A stretch of 64,000 nt of DNA, taken from Hydrogenophaga sp. Lineage in GTDB: Bacteria; Pseudomonadota; Gammaproteobacteria; Burkholderiales; Burkholderiaceae_C. Within the stretch, counting starts at the first letter, position 1. Every line of letters starts with the position of its first letter. The stretch is taken from the NCBI RefSeq assembly GCF_026125785.1, contig NZ_JAHCKL010000001.1:393373-457372 (forward strand), in the 5' to 3' direction. Under the pieces are notes generated by a model. The model was not told the DNA's origin. It made no database searches and was given only the letters and a program-made list of their open reading frames with translations. Positions 3,670 through 19,995 of this stretch are shown here, one piece after another. The position numbers were made by a program, and so were the translations under genes.

Positions 3670-4485
3670 CTATTCGGTTGTGGATAAGTCTATCGGGTCT
3701 GCTGTTTTTCGATCTCCTTTCTGAGCTTTGCTGCGCGGCTTGGGTGGCGCCGCGCCAGCGGCACTGGAATGCTTGAATCGCCAGCTTTCATTGCCTGTCT
3801 CCACGATGTGGCAGTGGTGCGTGAGGCGGTCGAGCAAAGCGGTGGTCATCTTGGCGTCGCCAAAGACACTGCTCCATTCTGAGAAGGTGAGGTTGGTGGT
3901 GATCACCACGCTCGTTCGCTCGTAGAGTTTGGAGAGCAGGTGGAACAGCATCGCACCGCCCGACTGCGTGAACGGCAGGTAGCCCAATTCATCGAGGATC
4001 ACCAGATCGACGTACATCAGCCGGTGCGCCATTTGCCCGGACTTGTTCTGCGCCTTCTCCATCTCCAGGGCGTTGACCAGGTCCACCGTGGAGAAGAAGC
4101 GCACCCGTTTGCCATGCATGCGGATGGCCTCGATCCCCATGGCTGTGGCCAGATGGGTCTTGCCCGTGCCGGGGCCACCGACCAGCACCACGTTGTGTGC
4201 CGAGTCCACGAAGCCCAGGGTGTGCAGATGGCGCACCAACGCCTCATCGATGGGCGTGTGGGCGAAGTCAAAGCCAGCGAGATCGCGGTGCGCCGGGAAC
4301 CGCGCCACGCGCATCTGGTACGCCATGGAGCGCACCTCGCGCTGCGCAGTCTCGGCCTTGATGAGTTGGTGCAACACGGCCTCGTGATCGAGCGACTTCA
4401 TGCGGGCAGTGCCCAGCACTTCTGGCCAGGCACTGGCCATGCCGTGCAGGCCCAGCGCCTTCAAAGCATCCATGACGTCATGCAT
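3670..4485 (-). CDS. istB: IS21-family transposition ATPase IstB
   Basis: About 271 residues. The AAA+ motifs are clear: Walker [14 protein letters not shown] about 100 residues in, and Walker [13 protein letters not shown]. IstB binds DNA and ATP, assembles as a decamer and helps IstA select targets and strand-transfer. The start chosen at 4485 ([13 protein letters not shown]) follows CAGGAG; an upstream ATG at 4509 lacks this. It overlaps the istA stop by a few bases, the usual arrangement in IS21. The C-terminal tail after the ATPase core is rich in basic residues. Confidence 0.95.
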
Positions 4486-6025
4486 GGCCGGACTCCTGTG
4501 ACGCCTCAAGAGGCGGGGCGTTGCGCAGCGCGTCGTAGCGCTGCAGGTTGGCCAGTGGCGGCGTGCTGAGCGTGAGCATGGTGGCCACCGGTGGCTCGGG
4601 CATGCGCTGCTCCTGCAGGCGCGAGAGCAGGTTGAGCACGTGCTCGGCGCTCACTCGCCCCGACTGCAGTGCCAGCTCCACGGCCACCAGCACGGCTTCG
4701 AGCCCGTGCAGGCTCACGCCCATGAGCACCTGCGCCATCACCTTGTCGCCACCGCTGTGGCGCAGCAACTGGCGCTGCAGCTCCTGCAGGGGTTCGGGTA
4801 TGGTCTTGAAGGGCGCGCCGTTGCGCAACGCGCCGGGCTTGCGCTCGATCAGCGCGATGTAGTGCATCCAGTCGTAGAGCGTCTGATCCCGCTCGAAGCT
4901 GCGCGCCAGGCGCACCTTTCGCCCGTCAGGCCCGACCACCAGCAGGCCATCCGCGTAGGCCCGCAGACTGACCACCGCATGGATCCACTCGCACGGCACG
5001 CTGTAGCGGTTGCGCTGGAAGTGAATCAGCGAGGTGGCAGAGACCCGCACCGGCTGCTCCACGTAGCCATCAAACGCCCGGGGGGTGGGCATGAGGCGAG
5101 CACGCTCGTCCTGCCAGACGTCGGCCACCGTGAGGTGTGCCCACTCAGGGTGAGCCATCTCGGCCCAGGCCTTCACACAGGCCTGCTGCAACCAGTCGTT
5201 GAGCTCGTCCAGCGATCCCCAGCGTCGCTCACTGGCCTCGCGCCAGATGTCCTTGCGCCGATCCTGGACGTTCTTCTCGACGACCCCCTTCTCCCAGCCG
5301 GCGGCCCGGTTGCAGAACTCCGGCTCGAACAGGTAGTGCCCGGTCATCGCCTCAAAGCGCGCATTGACGCTGCGTTGCTTGCCCTGGCCGACCTTGTCCA
5401 CCGCCGTCTTCATGTTGTCGTAGATGCCCCGGCGGGGCACGCCACCGAAGAGGGCGAACGCCCGTGCGTGCGCATCGAACAGCATCTCGTGCGCCTGGCT
5501 GTAGTACGCCACCAGGCAGAAGGCGCGACTGGCCGCCAGCTTGGTGTGTGCCACCTCCAGGCGGCGACGCAGCCCGCCAATGAAGAGGTACTCGCAGCTC
5601 CAGTCGAACTGGAACGCCTCGCCCAGTTCGAAGCTCAGCGGCACGAACCCTGCACCACGCGCCGCGTTGCCCTGCTCTTGCTGCCAGCGCTGGGCAAATG
5701 TGTACACCGGCCCTCGGCTGCCACTGTAGCCCTGCACCCGCAGCGCTTCAAACATGGCCTTGATACCGCGCCGATCGCGTTTGCTGCGATGGCTATCGGC
5801 TTTGAGCCACTGGCTCAACTGCTCCTTGTACGGATCCAGGATGCTGGGGCCCGAGACCCGCTGCGGGTATCGGGGCTCGACCATCTGCTCGTCTTTGAGC
5901 CACTTGGTGGCTGTGTTGCGCGAGATGCCCAGCCGCCGGCTGGCCTCGCGCACCGACACGTCCTGCCTCAGCACGAGGCGGCGTAACTTGCTCAATGTGC
6001 TCACGTTAATCACTCCTGCTCCCAC
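4478..6025 (-). CDS. istA: IS21-family transposase IstA
   Basis: About 515 residues. The N-terminus has a helix-turn-helix ([19 protein letters not shown]). The integrase-catalytic core has the D,D,E fold; [10 protein letters not shown] and YDNMKTAV supply the two aspartate motifs. ATG at 6025 is the longest start, and GTG at 6004 behind GGGAGCAGGAG fits the ribosome site better. IstA binds the element ends and performs cleavage and strand transfer with IstB. No frameshift is visible, so the IS21 genes look intact even though the left end of the element is split by an IS1595 insertion. Confidence 0.94.
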
Positions 6026-9058: not shown

Positions 9059-9339
9059 AAGCCATTGCGTTTTCGCCAGCGGCGGAGGCGGACATTGGCG
9101 AGATTTGGGACTACAGCGCGGACAGGTGGGGGCCAGACCAGGCCGACAGCTACACCGACACAATTCGGGATGCCTGCTATGCGCTAGCCCGAGGAACAAA
9201 GCAAGGCCGCCCCTCCGTGCTGCCGAACCTGCAGAAATACCTATGCGGCTCGCATGTGGTCTATTTCCTCGATTTCCCAGACCACCTGAACGTGATCCGC
9301 GTGCTGCACCAACGGCAAGACGTTGAGCGGCACCTATAG
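9055..9339 (+). CDS. parE: ParE-type toxin
   Basis: 94 residues of the RelE/ParE superfamily: FSPAAEADIGEIWDYSADRW at the N-terminus and VVYFLDFPDHLNVIRVLHQRQD at the C-terminus. ParE members poison DNA gyrase. The complete frame, normal length and overlap with parD suggest a working module. Confidence 0.94.
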   Translation: MKAIAFSPAAEADIGEIWDYSADRWGPDQADSYTDTIRDACYALARGTKQGRPSVLPNLQKYLCGSHVVYFLDFPDHLNVIRVLHQRQDVERHL

Positions 9340-9679
9340 GTCAAAGAAACTCTCTGCTGCCTTGAGTGCGGCGCGACAGCCGGCTTCGGTGTCACTGTTG
9401 ATGGGGTGCAGGGTGCGGTTCATAGTGTGGCTTCCACGGTGTGGGCGTCGATGACGACTATTGACATCGCTCCCCGAACCATATAGCTTTCGTCCTGTGA
9501 CATGCCGCAAGGCACCACGCAGCGCCTCAACTCTTGAAAGGCGCACGCACTGACTCCCAAGGTCGGTGCCAGAGTATTTTCGTTGCAACCCGGACAGGGA
9601 TTTTGCGTATCCCTGTCCTCGGCCTCACGGTCGGTGTCGGGCTGCGTGATCTCCTAAGTCCATTCTTTTGGAGATCATG
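9340..9679. other. Non-coding stretch with leader hairpin before the DUF3577 gene
   Basis: No gene is supported across these 340 bases; a 29-residue minus-strand frame (9340-9426) is too short to call. Near the right end a perfect 10-bp hairpin, GGACAGGGAT (9592-9601) with ATCCCTGTCC (9609-9618), follows the string TTTTCGTTGCAACCC. The same arrangement (U-rich tract, CAACCC, GGA-rich stem) recurs before other genes up to 14.1 kb, so it is probably a 5' leader RNA element. Rfam lists a DUF3577 RNA motif upstream of this gene family; whether this is that motif needs a covariance search. Confidence 0.55.
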
Positions 9680-10396
9680 ATGACTGCTTCCGCACAAACC
9701 AACCATTTCAACCTGCATGTCAATGGCGTCGGATACGTGAACCGTGTCCGCTGGGTTGAACCTCGTCGCAACGCCGGCCGCCGTGCCGAACCCTTCCTTG
9801 CCTGTTCCGTGTCTGCCATTCGTGGCAATGCGGAGAGTCCTGACTACACCTACTTCGACCTGCGGGTCAGTGGCAGCGAGGCCATCGAGATGGTCGAGCG
9901 CCTGAAGGTGGATGTTGAGAACAAGCGCAAGGTGTTCATCGCATTCCGCATTGGGGACATTTATCCCCACATGTACGAACGCGATGTACGGCGCGATGGT
10001 AGTAAGACTGGCGAGAAGGAGATGGCAGCACTCATCAAGGGTCGCCTGCTCCTGATCAACAGTATCACCATCGACGGTGAAAACGTGTACCGGCGTGATC
10101 CCGAAGCCGACCAGCCCGTTGACGACCTGCAACCCGCTCCCCAGGAGTTGGAGCAGGGTTCGCCAGCGGCGCAACCGGTCGAACAGGGTGAAGAGCTGCA
10201 ACGCGATACTGCGCCGCAGGTGGCCGAGGGTGAACCTCGACGCCAGCGTCCCGAGCGCATCCAGGAACGTGTCCAGCCGGCTGCTCGTCCGCCGCAAGCA
10301 CGTCCTGCCAGCCAGCGTCCCGCCTACAACGGTGGATACGCTGCCGGTCGTACCGTCCGTCAGGGCGCCGACTATGTTGCTCGTGCCGTAGCCTGA
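9680..10396 (+). CDS. DUF3577 family ICE protein (STY4534-like)
   Basis: About 238 residues. Residues 1-120 match the DUF3577 family carried by GI-type ICEs (FNLHVNGVGYVNRVRWVEP, YFDLRVSG, KVFIAFRIGDIYPHMYE). After that comes a long Gln/Pro/Arg-rich tail that is probably disordered. The family is found next to single-strand-binding and replication genes on these elements, and a role in element DNA processing is inferred only from that. ATG at 9680 (or 9677) follows TTTTGGAGATC. Confidence 0.8.
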   Translation: MTASAQTNHFNLHVNGVGYVNRVRWVEPRRNAGRRAEPFLACSVSAIRGNAESPDYTYFDLRVSGSEAIEMVERLKVDVENKRKVFIAFRIGDIYPHMYERDVRRDGSKTGEKEMAALIKGRLLLINSITIDGENVYRRDPEADQPVDDLQPAPQELEQGSPAAQPVEQGEELQRDTAPQVAEGEPRRQRPERIQERVQPAARPPQARPASQRPAYNGGYAAGRTVRQGADYVARAVA

Positions 10397-10412
10397 AACT
10401 CAGCGCCACGAC

Positions 10413-10458
10413 CAGACCCCTCGCATTCGCCTTCGTGGCGGATCGAGGGGTTTGCTTT
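10413..10458 (+). terminator. Hairpin with T-tract between the DUF3577 gene and the next gene
   Basis: ACCCCTCG (10415-10422) pairs with CGAGGGGT (10443-10450), with an inner CGCC/GGCG stem around TTCGT, followed by TTGCTTTTT. It has the form of an intrinsic terminator, but it also lies in the leader of the next gene (start 10480), so it could be an attenuator. Confidence 0.55.
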
Positions 10459-10479
10459 TTGAAGCGAACGGAGTACCAG

Positions 10480-10707
10480 ATGACAGAGTTACAACACCCA
10501 CAGACCCCTGCGCATGGCCTTTTGGCCCGGCGGTATTGCGACAAGTGCCTGCCACTGCAGGTGCTGCGGTCGCGGGCGGGCTACTACCTTGGCACTTGCG
10601 ATCAGGATGGGCCAGTGTCCCGCGAGTCGGTGGAGTATTTCCTGACCGCTGACCAGGCGCATGCAGCGCATCGCAGCCGCGCATGGACGCAACGCATGGA
10701 ACCCTAG
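10480..10707 (+). CDS. Hypothetical small ICE protein with CxxC pair
   Basis: 75 residues from ATG at 10480, behind CGGAG. An upstream in-frame ATG would run through the hairpin and is rejected. The protein has CDKC near residue 22 and a second cysteine at YYLGTCDQDG, which hints at a small metal-binding or zinc-ribbon-like unit, but no family is recognised. It follows the DUF3577 gene in the ICE accessory block, with a hairpin and T-tract in between. Confidence 0.55.
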   Translation: MTELQHPQTPAHGLLARRYCDKCLPLQVLRSRAGYYLGTCDQDGPVSRESVEYFLTADQAHAAHRSRAWTQRMEP

Positions 10708-11092
10708 CGTTACCGTGCGTGCAGCCAGTCAGTCTTGATTTTCTGATGCCCAGCGCATATCCTTAGAGTGCTTTGCGAGTGTTTACTGGTGTCACTTGAA
10801 TAACCAGGGCCAGCACTGCTGGCGTATGAGGCCCATCAACCCCTGAAGTGGGCACGCGCGCAAGCGTCGGGGTACCCTCGGCACGCTTCCTCGAACTGCA
10901 CACACACTCGCTGTTGCGTCGCCAGAACTGCCAGGTCGCAAGCCTGTCAGTAACTTCAAGCCTCGGAGAGCCCAGGCCGCGCAAGCGGTCTGGGTATCTT
11001 CTAATTTTTTTCAACCTCACGGGACAACCCTCATGTCCCGCGAGGGGCGTGGGTGGAGTGCTTCCGTGTTTTTTCACCAGGAGCACACCACC
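10708..11092. other. 385-base intergenic leader region of the DUF3275 gene
   Basis: No convincing frame. The right part has CGGGACA (11020-11026) pairing with TGTCCCG (11034-11040) after a T-rich tract and CAACCTCA, matching the leader pattern seen before 9680, 12890, 13395 and 14149. Another hairpin, CCAGGCCGC/GCGGTCTGG, lies at about 10970-10993. A long 5' UTR with regulatory structure is likely; a separate promoter cannot be fixed. Confidence 0.45.
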
Positions 11093-11692
11093 ATGATCAC
11101 CGTCAAAAATGCCACCCTGCGCGTCAAGCGCATCAACGGCCGCAATGGCCCGTTTTGTATTGCTGACCTGTCCACCGATTTCGGTGAGTTCAAGGTCAAG
11201 GAATCACTGCTCGACCAGTTCGACGAGGGCACCTACGAGGCGACCGTGTGGATCGACGAGATCTACATGGGCCAGTATGTCGCCTACGGGAAGGCCGTCA
11301 CGGAGATTCGGGCACGCCTGCGCGATGTGCAGGTGCTGACCGAAGATCAACGCCCGGTGTCCGAGGAAATCGTTGAACCCGATCCCCTGGAAGAGCAGCC
11401 GCAGCCGGCACCCGCCATCCAGAAGCCACCCGTCCAGGAAGAGCCCCGCGACAAGCGCTGGGACAAGTTCAAGAAGTCCAAGGAGGAAGCCGCACCCGTA
11501 CAGGACGCGGATGAATCTGAACCTGCAAACGATCTGTTCGATGAAGAAACCTGGTCGGCCATGGAGCGGGCCATGCCCGTCAAGCTCGATGCCTCCGTGG
11601 ATCGGGCCTTGTTGAGACAGCAGGCAGGAATGCTTAGGCAGCGTGGCTATCGCTTCGATGCCAAGCAGCAGATCTGGCTCTTTACCAGTTGA
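11093..11692 (+). CDS. DUF3275 family ICE protein
   Basis: 199 residues. The N-terminal 95 residues (TLRVKRINGRNGPFCIADL, FGEFKVKESLLDQFDEGTYE, VWIDEIYMGQY) match the DUF3275 family carried by ICEclc-like elements. Next comes an acidic and proline-rich linker and a C-terminal conserved block ending RGYRFDAKQQIWLF. ATG at 11093 has a strong ribosome site (CCAGGAG); an upstream start at 11033 would read through the leader hairpin. Function unknown; such genes travel with the DUF3577 and RadC-like genes. Confidence 0.8.
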   Translation: MITVKNATLRVKRINGRNGPFCIADLSTDFGEFKVKESLLDQFDEGTYEATVWIDEIYMGQYVAYGKAVTEIRARLRDVQVLTEDQRPVSEEIVEPDPLEEQPQPAPAIQKPPVQEEPRDKRWDKFKKSKEEAAPVQDADESEPANDLFDEETWSAMERAMPVKLDASVDRALLRQQAGMLRQRGYRFDAKQQIWLFTS

Positions 11693-12004
11693 CAGGAAGG
11701 GGAGCCCGCAAGGGTTCCGCCTCCAGCCCGCCTGACGGTGGGTTGACCTCTACATCACGCATTGGGTGTAGAGGCCAGCCTCCCGGCATGCCGCGGGAAG
11801 ATGTCCTAGCAGGGTGGCGGCGACCTCATGCGTCCGCAGCTTTGCGAATGGGCGGTGTGCGGTGAAAGCCAAGCCGCACCGTTGACCCTCGCGCCTTTTA
11901 TTGGTCACCTCGACCCCCGCTTTCGGTGATCCACCTGCCGCCCCAGCTCTTCGGAGCGATGGCGGGCCGCAGTGAGGGGGTGCAGTTCAAGCAATCGTAT
12001 CTAG
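11693..12004. other. Highly structured non-coding region upstream of RNA copy 1
   Basis: No gene. Several hairpins are visible: GGAGCCC/GGGTTCC at 11701-11718, CCTCTACA (11747-11754) with TGTAGAGG (11767-11774), and CGGTGTGCGG with CCGCACCG at about 11853-11882. It may be the 5' part of a longer non-coding transcript that continues into the structured RNA at 12005, but copy 2 of that RNA lacks this upstream part. Confidence 0.4.
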
Positions 12005-12121
12005 CCCGGAACCCGATGGGTTCCCCGAGTGCCCGCAGCGTGGCGGACACTGGGGGAAACCATCTGACCCGAACCGATGATGGTCTCAAGGCGTGTTCAA
12101 CCCTGAAAACACGCAGGCCGG
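12005..12121 (+). ncRNA. Structured RNA, copy 1 (four stems closed by CCGG/CCGG)
   Basis: Stems read directly: GGAACCC (12008-12014)/GGGTTCC (12018-12024); CCCC (12023-12026)/GGGG (12052-12055) continued by AGTGCCCGC/GCGGACACT; ACCATC (12059-12064)/GATGGT (12079-12084); GCGTGTT (12091-12097)/AACACGC (12108-12114). CCGG at 12006-12009 and 12118-12121 can close the whole. Copy 2 at 13925 has the same order of stems with compensatory base changes. P1 and P2 share two bases at 12023-12024, so they compete or slide. Strand is inferred from gene direction. The RNA family is not known to me. Confidence 0.75.
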
Positions 12122-12219
12122 CGCAAGCCTACCGGGTACAACTGTGATTTCCATCAAGCCTTGCGGGCGCCTGTCCGCAAGAGCCAGGCCCTGCATTTTT
12201 CGATGCAAGGAGTAGACTG

Positions 12220-12516
12220 ATGAGCGTGTCTCATTCGACTGTTTACGGTTCGTTGTCGCGAGCGGGCATCCCCTCCGATAACGCCAACGAGGTGGAGCAA
12301 GCCATGAAACAGATGGTCGATAACGGCGTCGAAGGCGTGCGCGGCGATGTTCGGGATTTGCGAGAGCAAGTTCTGAGCAAAGCGGACGGGCAAGTGCTTC
12401 GGGCCGAAATCGTGACCGAGCTTCACAAGACCATCAGCGACCTCACGATCAAGATGTTCGGTGCAATGCTGGCTTCGACCGGCATCATCATCGCTGTGGT
12501 GATCAAGCTGGCGTGA
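12220..12516 (+). CDS. Small coiled-coil protein with C-terminal membrane helix
   Basis: 98 residues. The first 70 form amphipathic helices (VEQAMKQMVDNGVEGVRGDV ... LREQVLSKADGQVLRAEIV), and residues 76-97 are one transmembrane helix (MFGAMLASTGIIIAVVIKLA). The layout is like the DUF1640/CCDC90 type of membrane-anchored coiled coil. ATG follows AAGGAGTAG. It ends one base before the next gene, so the two form an operon. The N-terminal motif STVYGSLSRAGIPSDNANEVE resembles that of its neighbour (KTLVAAGKPHDAAYKVD), so the pair may be related. Function unknown. Confidence 0.7.
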   Translation: MSVSHSTVYGSLSRAGIPSDNANEVEQAMKQMVDNGVEGVRGDVRDLREQVLSKADGQVLRAEIVTELHKTISDLTIKMFGAMLASTGIIIAVVIKLA

Positions 12517-12517
12517 C

Positions 12518-12787
12518 ATGGCTGGCGATTTCTACAAAACCCTGGTGGCAGCCGGCAAGCCCCACGATGCAGCCTACAAGGTGGACAGGGCACTTCATGA
12601 AGTGCTCGACTATCTGAGGCCCGTCATGCTCAGGCGCGAGATGCCCTGGCCTGAGCTGCACATCTTCGAGGCGTTTACCGAGTTGGGCACACCACCCGAC
12701 ATGGCCAACAAGCTCGAAGGCGAGTTTCAGAAACTGCTCTGGGACTTGCGTGAAGAAGGCTGGGAACACCGACTGCGTTCCCGCTGA
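12518..12787 (+). CDS. Hypothetical protein paired with the upstream coiled-coil gene
   Basis: 89 residues from ATG one base after the previous stop. The N-terminus (YKTLVAAGKPHDAAYKVDRA) and the middle (FEAFTELGTPPDMANKLEGE) carry the same short helix pattern G-x-P-x-x-x-A-x-K/E seen in the upstream gene, so this may be a tandem of one small helical module. No membrane segment. No family recognised; probably co-expressed with the membrane partner. Confidence 0.6.
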   Translation: MAGDFYKTLVAAGKPHDAAYKVDRALHEVLDYLRPVMLRREMPWPELHIFEAFTELGTPPDMANKLEGEFQKLLWDLREEGWEHRLRSR

Positions 12788-12811
12788 GTTCGTCCGGCAC
12801 TGCAGCCGGAA

Positions 12812-12889
12812 TGCATTTTCATCAACCCCCTGGGGACAGCCGATCCCCGCGCGGGGTAGGTCGTCCCCGTTTTTCTCATGGAGACGTCG
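12812..12889 (+). promoter_or_regulatory. Leader hairpin before the gene at 12890
   Basis: After TTTTCATCAACCCC comes GGGGAC pairing with GTCCCC about 30 bases later, with an inner CCCCGCGCGGGG hairpin, then a T-tract and the ribosome site GGAGACG. It has the same layout as the leaders before 9680, 11093, 13395 and 14149. It could act as attenuator or protein-binding element. Confidence 0.5.
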
Positions 12890-13171
12890 ATGACCTTCAA
12901 CAACCTTTCTGTTACCAACGACGACCAGGAGCGCAGGCTGTTTCACAGCATCTTCAATGAATGGGTGATGGCCCATGCCAGCGAAGACGACTGGCTGCAA
13001 CTGGAGCAGGCGCGCGAGCACTTTGCTCCCAACGAAGTGTGCTCAGCCGTCAGGCTGGTGCGCCGCTGTCTGGCTCGCCAGGAACTGGTGCAGGAGCTTC
13101 CACTGTCCCTGCGTCAACTACTGCAAGAACGGAATTGGCCGCAGGTTTGCGACGGCGCGATAGCGCCCTGA
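12890..13171 (+). CDS. Hypothetical ICE accessory protein
   Basis: 93 residues from the ATG at 12890 (MTFNNLSVTNDDQERRLFHS), behind GGAGACG; an in-frame ATG at 12878 would place the ribosome site inside the gene. Mostly alpha-helical, with a basic middle (AVRLVRRCLARQELVQELP). No family is recognised. It lies between two structured leaders in the ICE accessory block upstream of the RadC-like gene. Confidence 0.55.
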   Translation: MTFNNLSVTNDDQERRLFHSIFNEWVMAHASEDDWLQLEQAREHFAPNEVCSAVRLVRRCLARQELVQELPLSLRQLLQERNWPQVCDGAIAP

Positions 13172-13319
13172 GCCTGGGCAGCGCCTGCCTCAAGTCCATG
13201 TCCTCCAGCAGTTCGGTCAGATCGACCTGCTGGGCGGCATTGCCACCCTGGATGGAAATCAGTTTCGTGCGATCGGCCATGGCCGTTAGTGTGCCATCGC
13301 ACGGGCTGATTCCCGTATC

Positions 13320-13394
13320 ACTCATTTCAACAACCCGGATGGGGCGACGCTCCTACCGGGGGTGTTCTCCGTCCATTTTTGACTGGAGAGCACC
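13320..13394 (+). promoter_or_regulatory. Leader element before the RadC-like gene
   Basis: CATTTCAACAACCCGGATGG followed by CGACGCTCCTACCGGGGG and TCTCCGTCC gives a CCCGG/CCGGGG stem inside a GGA/TCC closure, ending in a T-rich tract 15 bases before the ATG. Rfam describes a radC RNA motif upstream of such genes; a match here is plausible but untested. Confidence 0.5.
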
Positions 13395-13916
13395 ATGTTC
13401 ATCAATCCGATTGACTCTCGCGCACGCGAAGAAAACTCGCCACTGCTGGTGGCCGAGGCCGGTGGCTGCTACAGGCCGGCATCGGACGTTGAGATCCTGA
13501 ACGCCGCTGAGCTGCGGTTGCTGGCCAGGGTGCATCACGGCCCGGCCCTGCAGACGCCGACGGCGGTCAAGGAATACCTGCGGATTCGCATGGGCACCTT
13601 GCCACATGAGGAATTCGCGGTGTTGTACCTGGATAGCCACCACCGACTGCTGCATGCTGAAACGCTGTTTCGCGGCACCTTGGGACAGACCTCTGTGTAT
13701 CCGCGCGAGCTTGCCATCGGGGCGCTACGCCACGAAGCAGCGGCCGTCATGGTGGCTCACAACCACCCCAGTGGCGATCCAACTCCGTCACGCGCCGATG
13801 AGGTGCTGACGCAGACCCTCAAAACTGCCCTGGCGATGCTGGACATCCGGCTGCTCGATCACTTCATCGTCACGCCGATGCAGGTATTGAGCCTGGCCGA
13901 GCAAGGCTTGGTCTAA
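13395..13916 (+). CDS. RadC-like JAB/MPN domain protein
   Basis: 173 residues. The JAMM zinc motif is complete: [14 protein letters not shown] at about residue 120, with the upstream acid in [16 protein letters not shown]. The C-terminus [19 protein letters not shown] is typical of the RadC family. ATG follows TGGAGAG. Mobile-element RadC proteins (YeeS type) have an unproven biochemical role; despite the name, a DNA repair function is not established. It is embedded in the ICE accessory block. Confidence 0.93.
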
Positions 13917-13924
13917 GCCTCAAC

Positions 13925-14054
13925 CCGGAACCCACCCACGGATGGGTTCCCACAGCGTCAGGCCTGCACATAGGCAGAGCAGGGCGCTGTGGGAAACCAT
14001 CCCTCCAACCGAAAGATGGTTTTGCGCTGTGTTCAGCCTTGTAAACACAGCCGG
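13925..14054 (+). ncRNA. Structured RNA, copy 2
   Basis: Stems: GAACCCA (13928-13934)/TGGGTTC (13943-13949); CCCACAGCG (13949-13957)/CGCTGTGGG (13985-13993) with an inner GCCT/AGGC hairpin; AAACCATC (13994-14001)/GATGGTTT (14015-14022); GCTGTGTT (14026-14033)/AACACAGC (14044-14051). CCGG at 13925-13928 and 14051-14054 can close it. Compared with copy 1, the second and fourth stems differ in sequence but still pair, while GGGAAACCATC and the loop CAACC/GAAC segments are conserved. It begins just after the RadC-like stop codon and ends before the leader of the next gene. Confidence 0.78.
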
Positions 14055-14083
14055 TCGCCATGGCGATCGAGGCATTCGTCATT

Positions 14084-14148
14084 TCATCAACCCGGACGGG
14101 CTGGCCCCTGCGGGTCTCCTGTCCACCACCTGTTCAAGGAGGTGTTTT
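14084..14148 (+). promoter_or_regulatory. Leader with ribosome-site-sequestering hairpin
   Basis: TTTCATCAACCCGGACGGG begins a leader like those before 12890 and 13395. Immediately before the start codon, CACCACCT (14124-14131) pairs with AGGAGGTG (14137-14144) across a 5-base loop, with one mismatch. This hides the complete ribosome-binding site of the gene at 14149. Translation would need the stem to be opened, which suggests a translational switch. Confidence 0.6.
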
Positions 14149-14397
14149 ATGGCACTTGCACTGTGCATGCCGGCCTATACTGGCCCCATGCAAAAGCCCT
14201 ATCTCATTCACGCCGAATGGGACGACGAGGCGGGCGTTTGGGTGGCAACCTCGGACGATGTTCCGGGTCTTGCCACCGAAAGCGCCTCACTCGAAGCCCT
14301 GGCAGAGAAGCTCCAGCACCTGGTGCCTGAGCTGCTCGAAGCCAATGGCGTAGCGATGGATGATGCGGTTACTTCCCGACCGACGGGGAGACCTTGA
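14149..14397 (+). CDS. DUF1902/HicB-like antitoxin-type protein, C-terminus altered
   Basis: 82 residues from ATG 14149, which has a near-perfect ribosome site locked in a hairpin; MQKPY at 14188 is an internal alternative. The segment YLIHAEWDDEAGVWVATSDD followed by VPGLATESASLEALAEKL is a DUF1902 / HicB half-RNase-H-like fold. The last residues (DDAVTSRPTGRP) are translated from DNA that in another frame encodes GYFPTDGETL of the DUF6094 protein. The native C-terminus therefore appears lost at a junction near 14360. No HicA-like toxin is adjacent. Confidence 0.7.
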   Translation: MALALCMPAYTGPMQKPYLIHAEWDDEAGVWVATSDDVPGLATESASLEALAEKLQHLVPELLEANGVAMDDAVTSRPTGRP

Positions 14398-15431
14398 GCC
14401 GCATCCTCCCCATGCTCATTCCCGATCTGTCGGGTGGTGTGCCATGTGAGGGGCGGACGATCCGCATGCTCGATCCCTGTTGCGGCGAGGGCGCTGCCCT
14501 GGCTGACCTGTGTCAGGGCCTGTGCAACAGCTGGCCCAACGGGCCATTCATCGAAACCTACGGTGTCGAGTTTGACCAGGAACGTGCCTGGCACGCGAAA
14601 ACCATCGTGCAGAGCGTGATCCATTCGGACATCCATGACGTGGTGATCAAGCCGAGAACGGTGGGCCTGCTGTTCCTGAATCCGCCCTATGGGTTTGGAT
14701 TGAAGGACAACGCCACTGGAGCCGTGGCTTCGGACACCAACGAGCGGGCCGAACGGCTGGAGCGCACTTTCCTGAAGAAAACCGCACCGCTGTTGATGAT
14801 CGGCGGGGTGTTGGTGTACATCATTCCGCACTATGCCCTGGACGATGAAATCCGCACCTACCTGGCGCGCAATTTCACCGACCTGCGGTTTTTCATGGCG
14901 CCCGAGCAGCAATTCAAGCAATGCGTCATCGTGGGAACCAAGTGCAAGCCTGGGCACCCCCGAAAGGACGTGCTGGACATGCTGACACGCGCCCAGGCCG
15001 GCGAGCTGAACGACCAGGAGCTGCCCAGGCAGTGGACGCAGGAGCGCTATGTGGTTCCATCGGTGGCCTATGGCTCGGAGTTCGACTTCCGTGCCATCCG
15101 TCTCGATGGGCCGCAGCTCGCGCAAGAGCTCGACCGGTGGCAAAACAGCCTCTTGTGGACGGGGTTCGACACCACGTTCAGCCAGGCCAAATCGGAGCAC
15201 CGCAGGCCCCTGCGCGATATGACCAAGTGGCACCTGGCCCTGGCGCTTGCCGCCGGACAGGTCACTGGCCGCATCGAGAGCAAGGACGGCCGTGTGTTTC
15301 TGATCAAGGGCGACACCTTCAAAAAGAAGGAGCGCACGGTGGCCACCCAGGTCGATGACAACGGCAACGTGACGGAGACCCGGGCCTCCGTGATGCGCGG
15401 TGGTTGGGACACGGCGAGGGTTTCGCTGTAG
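14394..15431 (+). CDS. DUF6094 family methyltransferase-like protein, ends altered
   Basis: 345 residues from TTG 14394, which overlaps the upstream stop. SAM-binding motif I is LDPCCGEGAALADL and the catalytic-type motif IV is NPPYGFG, as in amino-methyltransferases. The nucleotides upstream of TTG still encode GYFPTDGETL in frame, a conserved N-terminal block of this family, but a TGA two codons further up shows that the original start was lost when it was joined to the DUF1902 gene. The C-terminus (GGWDTARVSL) also meets a broken minus-strand gene. DNA modification is a guess; the family is carried by ICEs. Confidence 0.75.
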   Translation: MSRILPMLIPDLSGGVPCEGRTIRMLDPCCGEGAALADLCQGLCNSWPNGPFIETYGVEFDQERAWHAKTIVQSVIHSDIHDVVIKPRTVGLLFLNPPYGFGLKDNATGAVASDTNERAERLERTFLKKTAPLLMIGGVLVYIIPHYALDDEIRTYLARNFTDLRFFMAPEQQFKQCVIVGTKCKPGHPRKDVLDMLTRAQAGELNDQELPRQWTQERYVVPSVAYGSEFDFRAIRLDGPQLAQELDRWQNSLLWTGFDTTFSQAKSEHRRPLRDMTKWHLALALAAGQVTGRIESKDGRVFLIKGDTFKKKERTVATQVDDNGNVTETRASVMRGGWDTARVSL

Positions 15432-15646
15432 TCCCCATTGCCGCGGGTTCCAAAGCGGAAGGCCAGGATGCCGTTCTCGCGCGTGTGACAGGTCGCGCAA
15501 CTCGCCAGGCCGTGCTCGTTCTGGCGCTTCTCGGTGATGATGCGCAGCACCTGGTTGTTGCCCATCTCGATCAGGGACAGGCCCGTCCAGCCATAGGCGG
15601 TGCGGTAGTAGGACGTTTGAACTTGTTGAACCGGTTGAACTTGCAT
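15420..15646 (-). pseudogene. N-terminal part of an unidentified gene with CxxCH motif
   Basis: ATG at 15646 follows CAAGGAGAG, so translation once began here. The first 75 residues (YYRTAYGWTGLSLIEMGN ... GLASCATCHTRENG) look coding and include one CATCH motif, which resembles a heme or zinc site. The frame then runs into the 3' end of the convergent DUF6094 gene, where a genuine continuation is unlikely. It is probably a truncated gene; family not recognised. Confidence 0.5.
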
Positions 15647-15674
15647 GGTGACTCTCCTTGGATTGCAGGCGAAG

Positions 15675-15862
15675 TCAACTGATCTTCACGATCTGCCCGA
15701 GCCGGTCGCCCGGCGTGAAGTCGATCGCGTTGATCACAGGCACAAACCTGTCGAGCATGGTGATGGTCAGCGTCCACAAGGCGCTGCCGCAATGGCTGCA
15801 CTTGAGACGCCGGTCGCCTAGCGTGGCCTGCGCAAACTCGGACGACACGGGCAAAGCTTCTG
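15675..15862 (-). pseudogene. C-terminal fragment of an unidentified zinc-ribbon-like gene
   Basis: The minus frame ending at 15675 reads SEFAQATLGDRRLKCSHCGS ... VINAIDFTPGDRLGQIVKIS. This has the look of a conserved small protein, with KCSHCG as half of a zinc site. Upstream of about 15862 the frame enters the recombinase module, so the 5' half was removed by insertion of that module. It is directly upstream of the broken gene that starts at 15646. Confidence 0.5.
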
Positions 15863-15876
15863 AAAGACATGGGTCT

Positions 15877-16431
15877 ATGAGGCTTGTCTTGGCCACGGCT
15901 GATCTCATGGTTGAAGGCCGATCGTTTGAGGGCTTCCCATTGCTGCTGGCCGATGACGGCTGGCCTTTGGAACCAGCACAATCGTTCCTGTGGCACGCCT
16001 TGGTCACCCAAGGAAGCATTGAAAGCAAGCTCACATGGGAAGCATATGGCCGCAGGCTTTATGACTACTTTGCGTTCTTGTCTGCCAACGGCCTGGCCTG
16101 GGATGAAGACCCAAAGCCGCACGGACTCAGCGTTGTGGCAAGGTATCGCGACTGGTCGCTCGGAGAGCTGGGCTTGAATCCCAACACTGTGAACAAGCGG
16201 TTGAATCTGGTGGTCCGGTTTTACGATTGGTGCAAACGCCAGGGGCACATCACTTACCTACCGTTTGGCGTGCGCGATGTTCGCACGCCATCGCATCAGG
16301 GCTTTCTTGCCCATGTGGATCGCGCGGGCGGCGTCGTTTCAAAACCGACGGTGATGGCGCGCGAGCGCAAGGCAACGATCAAATTCCTGACCAAAGAGCA
16401 GGTTAGGCAATGCCTTGGCGCGAGGCTTGAC
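15877..16431 (+). pseudogene. First recombinase of the module, N-terminal half only
   Basis: From ATG 15877 about 180 residues read as the SAM-like core-binding domain of a tyrosine recombinase (LTWEAYGRRLYDYFAFLSAN; LNPNTVNKRLNLVVRFYDWC) up to [17 protein letters not shown]. The frame then enters IS256-derived sequence and stops at 16440. The catalytic R-H-R-Y half is missing. It would have acted with the two following recombinases. Confidence 0.75.
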
Positions 16432-17094
16432 CACCTGTAGCCAGAACTTGGCACCCTCGGTCTGGGCCAGCCACAGGCCCAGCACCTCCTTGTCGCCCGT
16501 CATGGTGATGCCGATGGCCAGGTACACCGCCTTGACCCGCACCGCGCCCTCGCGCACCTTCACATGGATGCAGTCCAGGTAGACGATGGGGTAAATCGGC
16601 TCCAGCGGTCTGGCCTGCCAGGCCTTGACCTCGTCGGCCACGGCGTCCGTCACCGAGGAAATCAGACTGGGCGAAACTTCGGTGCCGTACATCTCTTCGA
16701 GGTGAGCCTGTATCTCGCGCACCGTCATGCCACGGGCGTACAGCGAGATGATTTTGTCGTCGAAGCCGGCCCAGCGGGTCTGGTGCTTGGGGATGAGCTG
16801 GGGCTCGAAGCTGCCATGGCGGTCGCGGGGCACCTCAATGGGCAACTCGCCGAAATCGCCCTTGAGGGTCTTCTTGCTCTTGCCGTTGCGGGTGTTCCCG
16901 CTGGGGTTGGCCACTGCCTCGTTGCGTTCATGGCCCAGGTGCTCAGTCAGCTCAGCGTCCAAAGCTCGCTCGACCAGCAGCTTGGTCAACTGCTTGAGCA
17001 GTCCGTTCTCGCCAATCAGGTCTTCGGGCTTCTTGTAGCTGGCCAGCAGGCCAGACAGCAGTTCTTCGGGTACGTCGTGTTTCTTGGTACTCAT
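16432..17094 (-). pseudogene. IS256-family (Mutator-type) transposase, N-terminal part
   Basis: About 220 of the usual 400 residues. [17 protein letters not shown], the block [20 protein letters not shown] and the core [17 protein letters not shown] (first catalytic Asp) are present. After [12 protein letters not shown] the sequence leaves the family. The second Asp and the Glu of the DDE triad are missing, so the enzyme is dead. Confidence 0.88.
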
Positions 17095-17163
17095 GGTGCT
17101 TACGGACAGGCCGACTTGCGTCGGCGTTGGATTGTCCGTTTACACAAAATTCTGCACACCCTC
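16432..17163 (-). mobile_element. IS256-family remnant (one end retained)
   Basis: The end at 17130-17163 has the typical form TTACACAAAATTCTGCACA-CCCTC; the opposite end is absent. The junction at about 16430 joins transposase codons directly to the recombinase gene. The insertion was therefore followed by a deletion that removed the rest of the transposase together with the 3' part of recombinase 1 and the 5' part of recombinase 2. Confidence 0.75.
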
Positions 17164-17165
17164 GC

Positions 17166-18149
17166 ATGCGTTCGGGCATCAACACCACTCCGCTCCTTGA
17201 AATGAAGCGGGATTGCTTGGGTCCACACCCCTTTATGCCCAACTTGATGCTGGTCAGAACTTTCAAGCGCAGAGGAAAAGGTGCGCAATTAACGTCACTG
17301 CGGCAAACTCATATCCACGACCTTGCAGCGTCGATCCCCATGGATGGCGTCGCGGTGCTAAAAATGGTGCTGGGAATGACGCAGAACCTCGTCGCCGAGG
17401 CACCAGACGGCATCAAAGATCGTGTTTGGCTCTACCGCTCATCACAACGCGGTGACCTCAAGGGGCAAACACTTTGTCTGAATATGGGCCGCGTTCACGA
17501 AAATACCAAAGCAATAGTTCACCGCCACGGGTTGTTCGCCGATGACGGCTCAGTGTTGCGAGTCACACTTGGACGCCTACGAAAGACCATGGAAAACCGT
17601 CTATGGAAGCTCAGCGATGGCGACCTGCTTGCCGTGTCCGCAGTGATGGGCCATTCCCCCCAGGTCGCAGACAACCACTACTTGCACCTTGATGAGCGCA
17701 CCAAGGCCGAGGGTGCCAAATTCATTGGCGAGGCGTTGCCAGGCAAACTCAGGGGGCACGACCTCGTGCCCACCCCCACGGGTAGTTGCAAGGACAGCTT
17801 GCAAGGCGCGCTCGCTCCGAAGGACGGCTCAACACATTGCGCGGAGTTCACGCATTGCCTAGGGTGTCCGAGCTATGCCATTGTGGGGACGGTCAAGGAT
17901 CTGCACCGGCTCTTCAGTTTTCAGCGCTTCCTGATGTCGGAGGTAGGCTACTACGCCACGGACGAGTGGAGTGAGTGGCGCCTTCACCATCAGGACCTCA
18001 TTGCAAGAATCGACCAAATTGCATACGACAACTTCATCCCGGAAATGGTGGCGCAAGCCAAGGCGCTTGCCGAGAAAAATCCCCATCCCTTCTGGGCGAT
18101 ACGCATGCGCCAGTCGCAACTGAGTCGAGAGGCACGCTATGGCCGGTAA
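17166..18149 (+). pseudogene. Second recombinase of the module, C-terminal part
   Basis: About 325 residues remain after the IS256 end. LGRLRKTMENRLWKLS, AVMGHSPQVADNHYLHLDER carry the catalytic Arg, the G-H-S and the Tyr. The C-terminal extension has a cysteine cluster (HCAEFTHCLGCPSY) typical of these large island recombinases. The N-terminal domain is deleted. The stop overlaps the next start by 11 bases, the native coupling. Confidence 0.75.
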
Positions 18150-19995
18150 CGCGATTGCATTGCAGCCGCCAAAGGCCTACGACCTCTTGGCTGCCCAGCC
18201 CGCTTCATCCAAAGGGCTGTCGGAATCCGAGAAATCCAATATCGTGGTCAGTGCGGTGGCTGACATGGACGGCAGCAACCACGTTCTGTCCCGATTTGGT
18301 GATCCGGTGTGGGACTTCAGGCCCTACTTTGAGCAATCCAATGTGGCCGATGGTCAGAAATACATTCCCTGGCCTGAGGACTGCTCGCAAGAGTTGGTCG
18401 ACGACTGCAAGGTTGTTCTGTATGTATGGTTCAAGCGAGGCCTGCCAGGCTCCAAGCCTCCGGTGGCAATGGGCATCTGCCAGACTGCCATCGCATCCGC
18501 GATTCCGATGATGCGTTGGCTGACTGCGTTGAACATCAAGAGATTCGACCAGGTCAGACCCATACACGTCGCGAACTACGTCCATCACACCAAAGCCCGC
18601 CTGACCCGCAATGCGCATAGCGTCTACGACAGCTTGCGCATCCTGGACTTCTTATGGGTGTTTCGCAACGAGACTTCATCTCCGCTTGCTGCATGTCCAT
18701 GGGGCGAGAGCTCACTGTGGCGGGTCAGCGGATTGGCAAAGCAACCCGGAAACCAATTTGGGCGAACTGAAACCGGGAAAACGCCCATCATTCCTGCTGA
18801 TGTTCAGGCCAAGGTGTTCAACTATTGTGAAGAGGTTCTTGCAGCGGCACCGGAAATTCTGAACGAGCGCGATGCCGGGAGGTTGGGGTTTAGAAATCCT
18901 GCGTTGATCCGCATTCGGGATGCTGCACTTTACGTCCTGTCGATAACCAGTGGCATGCGCAATGAGGAGGCGATTGGGGTCGAGTCTGGGTCATGGCGAA
19001 GCGAAGTGCGAGACGGCGTTCAATTCCACTGGGTCGCTACCACCGAGCATAAGACAGGAAAAGGCAAGGTCGAATTCTTGATCCCCGAACTCACAGTCAA
19101 AGTCTTGGATCTGATGAACCGCTATGCAAAGCCGCTTCAAGAAAAGATGGCTCTTGAAGTTGCGGAACTGGAGTGCAATCCACCACCTCAGGATTTGACG
19201 AATCGGATGCTGCGATTGGCAAAGGCAAAGCGAGACGTCAGAAAGCTTTTTCTATGCACCAGCATGTCTGGCCAGAGTGAATCGGCTGGATACCACGTTG
19301 ATGCGCTATCCAATGGTGGATCAAAGGTCTCATTCCGACGATTGGCCATGGCTGCCGGAACGGACTGGCAGTTGGCACCGCACCAATGCCGTAGAACTTA
19401 CGCGCGCAACATTGTGGAGTCGCGCATGGGGCGCTCCTCGCTTGTATTCCTCAAATGGCAGTTCAAACATTCCAGCATGAGCATGACCCAGTTGTATGCG
19501 TCCAACCCAATGCAGGATGCATCGCTGTTCGATGAAGTTCTGGAGGAGATGACCAACTTCAAGGTGGACTTGATTGAGTCTTGGCTTGGGGATCAGCCTT
19601 TGAGCGGCGGAGCCGGGCACGAAATCAAAAAGGTGCGCGCGATTGCCTTGAAAAGTCGCACGGCATTGTTGGCGGAGACGGCGCCTCAAGTTCACATCCG
19701 TGCTACCGGCCACGGGTGGTGCTTGGCCCAGGAAAAAGGATGCGGAGGCGCGGGATTGTATGAAACAACCCGATGTGTGGGATGTAAGAACGGTGTGATT
19801 GATCAGTCGTTTGCGGACGTCTGGAGAGGTATCTATGACCAACAAAACGAATTGCTGGCCATTGACGATGCGGGACCAGCGGTCAAGCAACGGGCTGAGC
19901 GTGACGTTCAATGGGCGCGCCAGGTTATGGTGGATCTCGGGGTGCTCCCACAAGCGTCGTGTGCGTCAAATTTGAGCGGAGCTTCAAATGAATGA
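18139..19995 (+). CDS. Third recombinase of the module (TnpB-like tyrosine recombinase)
   Basis: 618 residues, the length of Tn554 TnpB-type enzymes. Catalytic residues can be placed: Arg in SGMRNEEAIG near residue 272, HQCRR near 415, the KHSSMSMTQLYAS block with the Tyr near 453. The C-terminal 150 residues include a Cys-rich zinc-like stretch (GGAGLYETTRCVGCKNG). It is complete. Together with its two partners it would insert the module at specific sites; with those partners truncated, the module is probably immobile. Confidence 0.88.
   Translation: MAGNAIALQPPKAYDLLAAQPASSKGLSESEKSNIVVSAVADMDGSNHVLSRFGDPVWDFRPYFEQSNVADGQKYIPWPEDCSQELVDDCKVVLYVWFKRGLPGSKPPVAMGICQTAIASAIPMMRWLTALNIKRFDQVRPIHVANYVHHTKARLTRNAHSVYDSLRILDFLWVFRNETSSPLAACPWGESSLWRVSGLAKQPGNQFGRTETGKTPIIPADVQAKVFNYCEEVLAAAPEILNERDAGRLGFRNPALIRIRDAALYVLSITSGMRNEEAIGVESGSWRSEVRDGVQFHWVATTEHKTGKGKVEFLIPELTVKVLDLMNRYAKPLQEKMALEVAELECNPPPQDLTNRMLRLAKAKRDVRKLFLCTSMSGQSESAGYHVDALSNGGSKVSFRRLAMAAGTDWQLAPHQCRRTYARNIVESRMGRSSLVFLKWQFKHSSMSMTQLYASNPMQDASLFDEVLEEMTNFKVDLIESWLGDQPLSGGAGHEIKKVRAIALKSRTALLAETAPQVHIRATGHGWCLAQEKGCGGAGLYETTRCVGCKNGVIDQSFADVWRGIYDQQNELLAIDDAGPAVKQRAERDVQWARQVMVDLGVLPQASCASNLSGASNE

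Follow-up and report, generated by a model that had tools for sequence, protein, structure and literature searches.

We describe a pseudoknotted element that is repeated ahead of unrelated genes in an integrative conjugative element (ICE) of Hydrogenophaga sp., and that is likely, in our assessment, to be a cis-acting RNA of intercistronic or leader type. The stretch analysed, called the window here, comprises 64,000 nucleotides of contig NZ_JAHCKL010000001.1 (assembly GCF_026125785.1, positions 393,373 to 457,372). Its ICE is of the PFGI-1 class, with genes for a MobH relaxase of that class and for TraU-like, TraG_N-like, DUF3275 and RadC-like proteins; a DUF3577 protein matches the STY4534 ICE replication family at E 1.1e-34, below the cut-off of that family. 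Two copies, el1 and el2, lie on the + strand of the window and belong to a multi-copy family in which the pairing, the pseudoknot, the orientation and the position relative to genes are conserved. We infer from these features that the element is transcribed, that its fold may switch in the cell and that it would exert some kind of control, conceivably through a ligand or protein.

The first copy, el1, gives a full model match at 12001..12152 (130.2 bits with covariance model R1, 119.4 bits with its refined successor R2), and el2 gives one at 13927..14088 (111.4 and 102.8 bits, respectively). Both lie where a preliminary description had placed a duplicated structured RNA. Their structured parts, at about 12008-12137 and about 13927-14073, extend further in the 3' direction than the ends drawn there (12121 and 14054), because the element includes a hairpin, P5, and the 3' strand of the pseudoknot. 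The long hairpin of each copy folds better than all 200 shuffles (el1, 12013-12066, z -5.29; el2, 13938-14003, z -8.82), as does the whole of el2 (z -5.22); for the whole of el1 (z -3.20), 3 of 200 shuffles are as good. Nine modelled pairs are altered on both sides between el1 and el2 and still pair, which bears out the direct covariation claimed earlier. With R1, the rest of this genome holds nothing above chance level, the next match that is not a mirror image scoring 12.4 bits.

The wider family was reached from el2. Among 197 related genomes, BLASTN picked out a single good relative (G076, 93% identity); outside G000 and G076 there were three matches only, of 25-31 bases, in which no element was seen by eye, the covariance model not having been applied to them. 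A degenerate pattern made of the two conserved strands of the long hairpin, run over one genome per species (84,980 species), returned 44 stretches, and 16 of these, holding 17 elements, were kept by eye on their 3' hairpins. The other 28 were discarded by eye as other inverted repeats and score at most 31.0 bits with R1. The kept stretches come from Pseudorhodoferax, Comamonas, Hydrogenophaga, Ottowia, Paracidovorax, Corticibacter, Xylophilus, Diaphorobacter and a Comamonadaceae bacterium, genera that we take to be Comamonadaceae, and from one betaproteobacterial and one Desulfovibrionaceae metagenome-assembled genome. Aligned with el1 and el2 (alignment A2, 19 sequences), the 17 elements share 31 predicted pairs, 21 of them with at least one double compensatory change.

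The covariance search on which the preliminary description had staked its claim of a functional structured RNA found 60 full-length copies with the same pairing (R1; 22 of 27 sources searched, E up to 1e-14, 47.6-136.7 bits), in support of that claim and of true covariation. The word 'duplicated' understates a family of many copies. R2, run over 29 sources, returned the identical 60 copies, each at 64.9 bits or more; its next match, at 44.2 bits, is a mirror image. Opposite-strand matches at the same places likewise mirror the hairpins and do not count among the 60. The 22 sources amount to about 20 genomes, each of which carries between one and six copies. All copies within any one source share one strand, and their starts are 498-3699 bases apart; model length ranges from 139 to 166 nt, and median identity is 0.52 between copies from different genomes and gene groups.

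In a family-level sample of 399 genomes, R1 matched 11 genomes strongly, this genome included, and three more weakly (19-28 bits); it gave this genome alone as a strong match, with three others at 20-22 bits, in an order-level sample of 399; with R2, a class-level sample of 321 genomes returned this genome only. The samples were strictly filtered and may overlap, and they can miss some copies, those of G021 and G005 having surfaced otherwise. In viral contigs, a tighter pattern gave one stretch; among the matches listed for a loose pattern, 52 of 80 loci (L060-L111) gave a single R1 match of 11.3 bits (E at most 0.1). Against plasmids, BLASTN matched neither el1 (together with the region upstream of it) nor el2 nor one relative; a second relative had a single match, restricted to the leader part, on a Rhizobium plasmid.

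Each copy has the same architecture: a long hairpin (P2) is followed by a small one and then by P4 and P5, and the loop of P4 forms a pseudoknot with the strand right after P5. We measured this in A4, an alignment of the 60 copies (57 distinct) fitted to R1, a model that holds the other helices but not the pseudoknot. Over 38 pairs, including four of the pseudoknot, 92.7% of 2156 cells are paired, and 30 of the pairs show double compensatory changes. Double-change cells number 385, as against a mean of 118.4 in shuffled alignments and 28-79 with partners slid by 1-3 columns, and none of 500 shuffles equals A4 on any of the five measures taken. A secondary structure conserved with covariation support, one mark of a cis-regulatory RNA, is thus what the copies present.

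P2 occupies 12015..12064 in el1 (segment 2 at 12015-12025, an inner stem, segment 3 at 12054-12064) and 13941..14001 in el2 (segment 2 at 13941-13951, inner stem, segment 3 at 13991-14001); as helix 1 of the model it has double changes in 14 of 19 pairs. P4, at 12091..12114 and 14026..14051, is the fourth stem of the preliminary description (GCGTGTT/AACACGC in one copy, GCTGTGTT/AACACAGC in the other), with 99.2% of cells paired and double changes in 6 of 7 pairs. P5, helix 5 of the model, lies at 12116..12133 in el1, where it is imperfect and two modelled pairs fail to form, and at 14053..14068 in el2, where the sequence also supports it. The pseudoknot joins ACCC within the P4 loop (12100..12103) to GGGT (12134..12137) in el1, and GCCTT (14036..14040) to GAGGC (14069..14073) in el2, with four letters on each side (GCCT/AGGC) in the counted helix. 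It is paired in 97.4% of 228 cells, with a covariation score of 0.641 compared with 0.330 shuffled and no more than 0.176 slid. In the numbers of double-change pairs and of pair types it does not exceed shuffles (452 and 500 of 500), because few letters are in play.

The four-stem model proposed earlier is partly incorrect. Conservation does not extend to its closing CCGG/CCGG stem. The two boxes are found together in 4 of 57 copies, and swapping the partners gives a mean helix as high in 35 of 300 trials, which leaves the true partners without a clear advantage. The supposed joining segment, GGGAAACCATC, is a paired strand instead. The most conserved letters fall in segments 2-4, the P4 loop is conserved, and segments 1-4 are near-palindromic. 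Palindromic operator sites in double-stranded DNA, bound by an ICE regulator, would account for the near-palindromes and for where the conserved letters lie; they would leave unexplained the covariation of P4, P5 and the pseudoknot as well as the strand asymmetry described below, and we find such operators very improbable.

Protein coding was weighed as well. Stop codons by themselves cannot exclude it, since all three forward frames are interrupted in just 10 of 57 cores; the case against coding comes from the covariation together with the finding that no + strand open reading frame (ORF) of at least 60 aa led by a Shine-Dalgarno (SD) sequence spans el1 or el2. In this sense the earlier statement that the structure matches no coding frame holds, but an open frame at 13942-14397, in phase with the downstream DUF1902 gene, extends back through el2.

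Counts of G-U and A-C combinations bear on which strand carries the structure. Read on the gene strand, the modelled pairs include 139 G-U and 61 A-C combinations (16 and 1 in P4 alone), and none of 1000 column shuffles is as extreme for all pairs, for P4, or for P4, P5 and the pseudoknot together. RNA of the gene-sense strand would give such a skew, which points to the element acting as RNA of that strand. The position of the copies is one-sided too. For ORFs of at least 45 aa that have an SD-like sequence, a same-strand ORF starts 33-110 nt past the model end in 58 of 60 copies, and 53-76 nt past it in 48; in a control on the opposite strand, measured from the 5' end, an ORF falls within 110 nt in 13 of 60 copies and at 53-76 nt in none. 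The family thus keeps to one kind of place and to one strand ahead of coding sequences, a further mark of cis-regulatory RNAs. The preliminary description had denied that this was a simple leader; the structure is indeed more elaborate than a plain leader, yet it is placed as a leader or an intercistronic element would be. On the other side, the core starts at most 40 nt after the stop of the preceding ORF in 29 of 59 copies and more than 200 nt after it in 24, of which 17 follow an ORF of 205-225 aa whose equivalent in the window is DUF3275.

The strand and promoter evidence bears on another conceivable role, that of a single-stranded DNA promoter or priming site, like Frpo or ssi, which would serve early expression of establishment genes from the transferred strand. 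Frpo, as set out in PMC11541004, likewise has strong hairpins upstream of genes. The resemblance to Frpo/ssi is that both are structured and precede the establishment genes of conjugative elements, and the copies lie near RadC-like and ICE replication-type genes. However, the G-U over A-C skew indicates the gene-sense strand, and promoter hexamers are not enriched: -35/-10-like pairs occur in 7 of 57 coding strands (10.6 expected) and 10 of 57 template strands (10.7 expected). We therefore hold a role of this kind to be improbable.

The genes that follow the copies are diverse. Blastp sorts their proteins into nine groups with at least two members each, plus eight singletons. Of ten scanned against Pfam, two members of one group are RadC-like, one has a sub-threshold match and seven have no match; no common metabolite is evident among these ten. 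In the window, el1 precedes an ORF of 98 aa (12220..12516, + strand) that has no Pfam or NCBIfam match and clusters with seven other ORFs that follow copies elsewhere. The radC-like gene (13395..13916, + strand; Pfam PF04002) stops about 10 nt before el2, which in turn precedes the DUF1902 gene (14149..14397, + strand; PF08972, E 1.6e-24).

Repeats between short, variable genes of one block might also be selfish or recombinational, such as a mobile repeat or an attC-like cassette site working as folded single-stranded DNA, lying between genes by chance. A Diaphorobacter relative in which an extra small gene, lacking in the window, stands between el2 and DUF1902 would suit this explanation, but that difference is explicable by homology between short leaders. 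The whole genome of the window holds just two copies, every source keeps its copies on one strand, and gene starts lie at a narrow spacing on the same strand and not on the other side, all of which argues against a repeat of this kind; we give it little credence.

The copies could instead yield trans-acting small RNAs, processed from the operon or transcribed apart from it and acting on other RNAs or proteins. Their compact, highly structured form with a conserved P4 loop would fit, as would the many near-equivalent copies, and terminator-like sites could end a discrete RNA, for example at 14127-14144 after el2. Between 11690 and 14160 there are 8 terminator-like sites compared with 2.2 in shuffles, several of them just ahead of gene starts, and a T-run of at least five precedes the start in 19 of 58 leaders across the family, each with an adjoining hairpin of -10 kcal/mol or better, a count for which there is no null. 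Against a trans-acting role, a scan of 11690-14160 limited to sigma-70-like promoters found none (0.4 expected), 29 of 59 copies, as noted above, begin within 40 nt of the previous stop, and the narrow spacing to the next ORF would be needless. We regard such small RNAs as unlikely, although the terminator-like leaders make a discrete RNA somewhat easier to envisage and slightly reduce our confidence in a cis-acting leader.

A cis-acting RNA of this form could adopt two competing folds. Segment 2 (GATGGGTTCCC) is able to pair with segment 1, directly upstream, or with segment 3, for which segment 4 (GATGGTTTC) is an alternative partner, so that pairings 1:2 and 3:4 (fold A) exclude pairing 2:3 (fold B). 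Segments 1 and 4 lie at 12008..12014 and 12079..12087 in el1 and at 13927..13933 and 14015..14022 in el2. A conserved break in the long stem fits the additional pairing of segment 2 with segment 1 and of segment 3 with segment 4. Over 57 copies, runs in the 1:2 helix average 7.3 bp and its score is 18.5, as against 15.5 with partners swapped, and neither 500 partner swaps nor 500 shuffles of the upstream letters score as high. In the 17 copies with a changed segment 2, a run of at least six pairs with segment 1 is kept in twelve and one of four or five in five. The 3:4 helix is paired in 88.5% of cells (85.4% shuffled) and has 20 double-change cells (10.6 shuffled). Columns 17, 85 and 110 read T-A-T in 34 of 57 copies and C-G-C in 11, which retains 2:3 and 3:4 alike; the C-G-C copies may be related, and the events hence perhaps few.

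When either fold is forced, the median energy difference is 1.0 kcal/mol, with 44 of 57 copies within 5 kcal/mol and A the lower in 21. The minimum-free-energy fold of el1 is B, and that of el2 is A-like, with both 1:2 and 3:4. The modelled energies and pairings together suggest that RNA of the element probably switches between folds.

Several observations weigh against this switch or against the cis-acting leader as a whole. The 3:4 helix is the weakest, with a covariation score of 0.122 compared with 0.087 shuffled and at most 0.088 slid; its three double-change pairs are matched in 141 of 500 shuffles and so are not unusual, and a small local hairpin (helix 2 of the model) competes for its strand. 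The near-equality of the two energies is partly due to repeated complementarity and has no matched null, the forced folds of el2 (A -64.3, B -65.0) are less clear than its free fold, and the 2:3 pairing is damaged in some copies (for example, L216_11489). The G-U skew of the inner long stem is weaker (28 of 1000 shuffles), and the shuffles ignore relatedness. The SD filter of the ORF calls is loose, and two copies have no called ORF. With a T-run in 19 of 58 leaders only, a terminator is not general. Finally, of four other DUF3275 loci in relatives, two (G003 and G028) show no copy within the 19-20 kb that the search covered.

Taking these points into account, we propose that the element would be co-transcribed with the gene that follows it, within an accessory operon of the ICE. 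At its 5' end, the four segments would pair either as 1:2 plus 3:4 or as 2:3 around a constant inner stem; P4 would follow, its loop held in the pseudoknot with the strand right after P5, and a short leader ending at the ribosome-binding site of the next gene would come last. Copies duplicated ahead of many unrelated genes would place their cistrons under one type of post-initiation control, exerted through continuation of the transcript through a terminator-like leader or through translation of the next gene, with the outcome set by the fold adopted or by a bound factor. More tentatively, and with clear doubt on our part, the family may be a reiterated switch borne by ICEs, a bistable pseudoknotted RNA before unrelated establishment genes through which one ICE or host signal would retune all cistrons of the block by way of RNA, with antitermination at the terminator-like leaders as a conceivable mechanism; lineages would then have their own homogenised versions, of which related locus L232 (genome G676) may hold a second.

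As far as we know, little is understood of how ICEs time the expression of their genes for replication and establishment. A strongly covarying RNA with two competing folds, recurring ahead of many of these genes, would offer a direct handle, in that one helix could be mutated and several genes read. The covariance model, for its part, marks the accessory block in genomes whose proteins there are small and unnamed.

At L232, on the + strand, what appears by eye to be a sister element occurs at about 806, 6892, 9535, 16989 and 19130, five copies in 20 kb. Its 5' hairpins are similar and its 3' half is different, R2 gives it just 17-29 bits, and three copies fold at z -4.20, -3.14 and -1.94. BLASTN with it found two further short matches, in G518.

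Bistable cis-regulatory leaders include attenuators, riboswitches and antiterminator RNAs. The family is like them in its exclusive pairings, 1:2 with 3:4 or 2:3, upstream of a gene, and in the terminator-like leaders of some copies; it differs in that the terminator-like hairpin lies outside the alternating segments and in that the same element is repeated before unrelated genes of one block. The nearest described motifs are two from PMC2864571. STAXI (RF01728) is a pseudoknot motif near genes for single-stranded-DNA-binding, antirestriction and integrase proteins, repeated at least twice and usually three times, in Enterobacteriales. STAXI shares with our family a structured, pseudoknotted form, whereas our copies have one pseudoknot each, stand 0.5-3.7 kb apart and form no tandem repeats. 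The radC RNA motif (RF01754), a proteobacterial candidate RNA from the same source, is named after the gene that precedes el2; our family, in contrast, stands ahead of genes of many kinds, and RadC-like proteins figure in one of the nine groups.

The preliminary description had suggested a check against Rfam, the radC motif included. No Rfam family reached its gathering score in the 64-kb window, and a lax search of 9300-15700 (E up to 10) gave six matches, all far below gathering scores, with RF01754 not among them. The lax matches included miRNA families, which we took as chance at such scores. The STAXI model had no match in the window, in the lax search or in seven related loci. An RNA family for DUF3577, also named in that suggestion, was not looked up as such. 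The string 'conjugati' is absent from the main texts of two large motif searches (PMC11109978 and PMC8632094); we make no claim that the literature lacks the motif. A strict Rfam search of the seven related loci returned the anti-hemB small RNA only (RF02837; L228, 16561-16644, 51.8 bits).

Short leaders recur in the window, at 12140-12220, 12814-12877, 13322-13394 and 14079-14148, before genes with and without the element. They often consist of TTTCATCAACCC and a GC hairpin, sometimes with a T-run, followed by an SD sequence. A leader-like match lies on Rhizobium plasmid CP021372.1. In the Diaphorobacter relative (L004, 1670-2033, compared with 14073-14150 in the window), the extra small gene between el2 and DUF1902 is accompanied by a leader, and the absence of both from the window looks as if two leaders had recombined.

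Upstream of el1, the stretch from the DUF3275 gene to the element (11740..12000, + strand) is a separate conserved structured block. Aligned over 17 loci, it has 37 predicted pairs, 19 of them with double changes, and a near-invariant hairpin, GGGTGGC(G/T)GC..CCT..TG.G...GC.GC.TTTGCG. For the oriT of the ICE, the part of PMC6561031 consulted gave no location. Downstream, at 14394-19995, a DUF6094 gene covers positions 155-312 only of a 344-position profile and is followed by tyrosine-recombinase-like genes; an ORF at 16339-17094, on the strand opposite the DUF6094 gene, is presumably transposase-like. At 3670-6025, a transposase gene (Mu-transpos_C_2) adjoins an ORF that resembles its ATPase partner, a pair that we take to be IS21-like.

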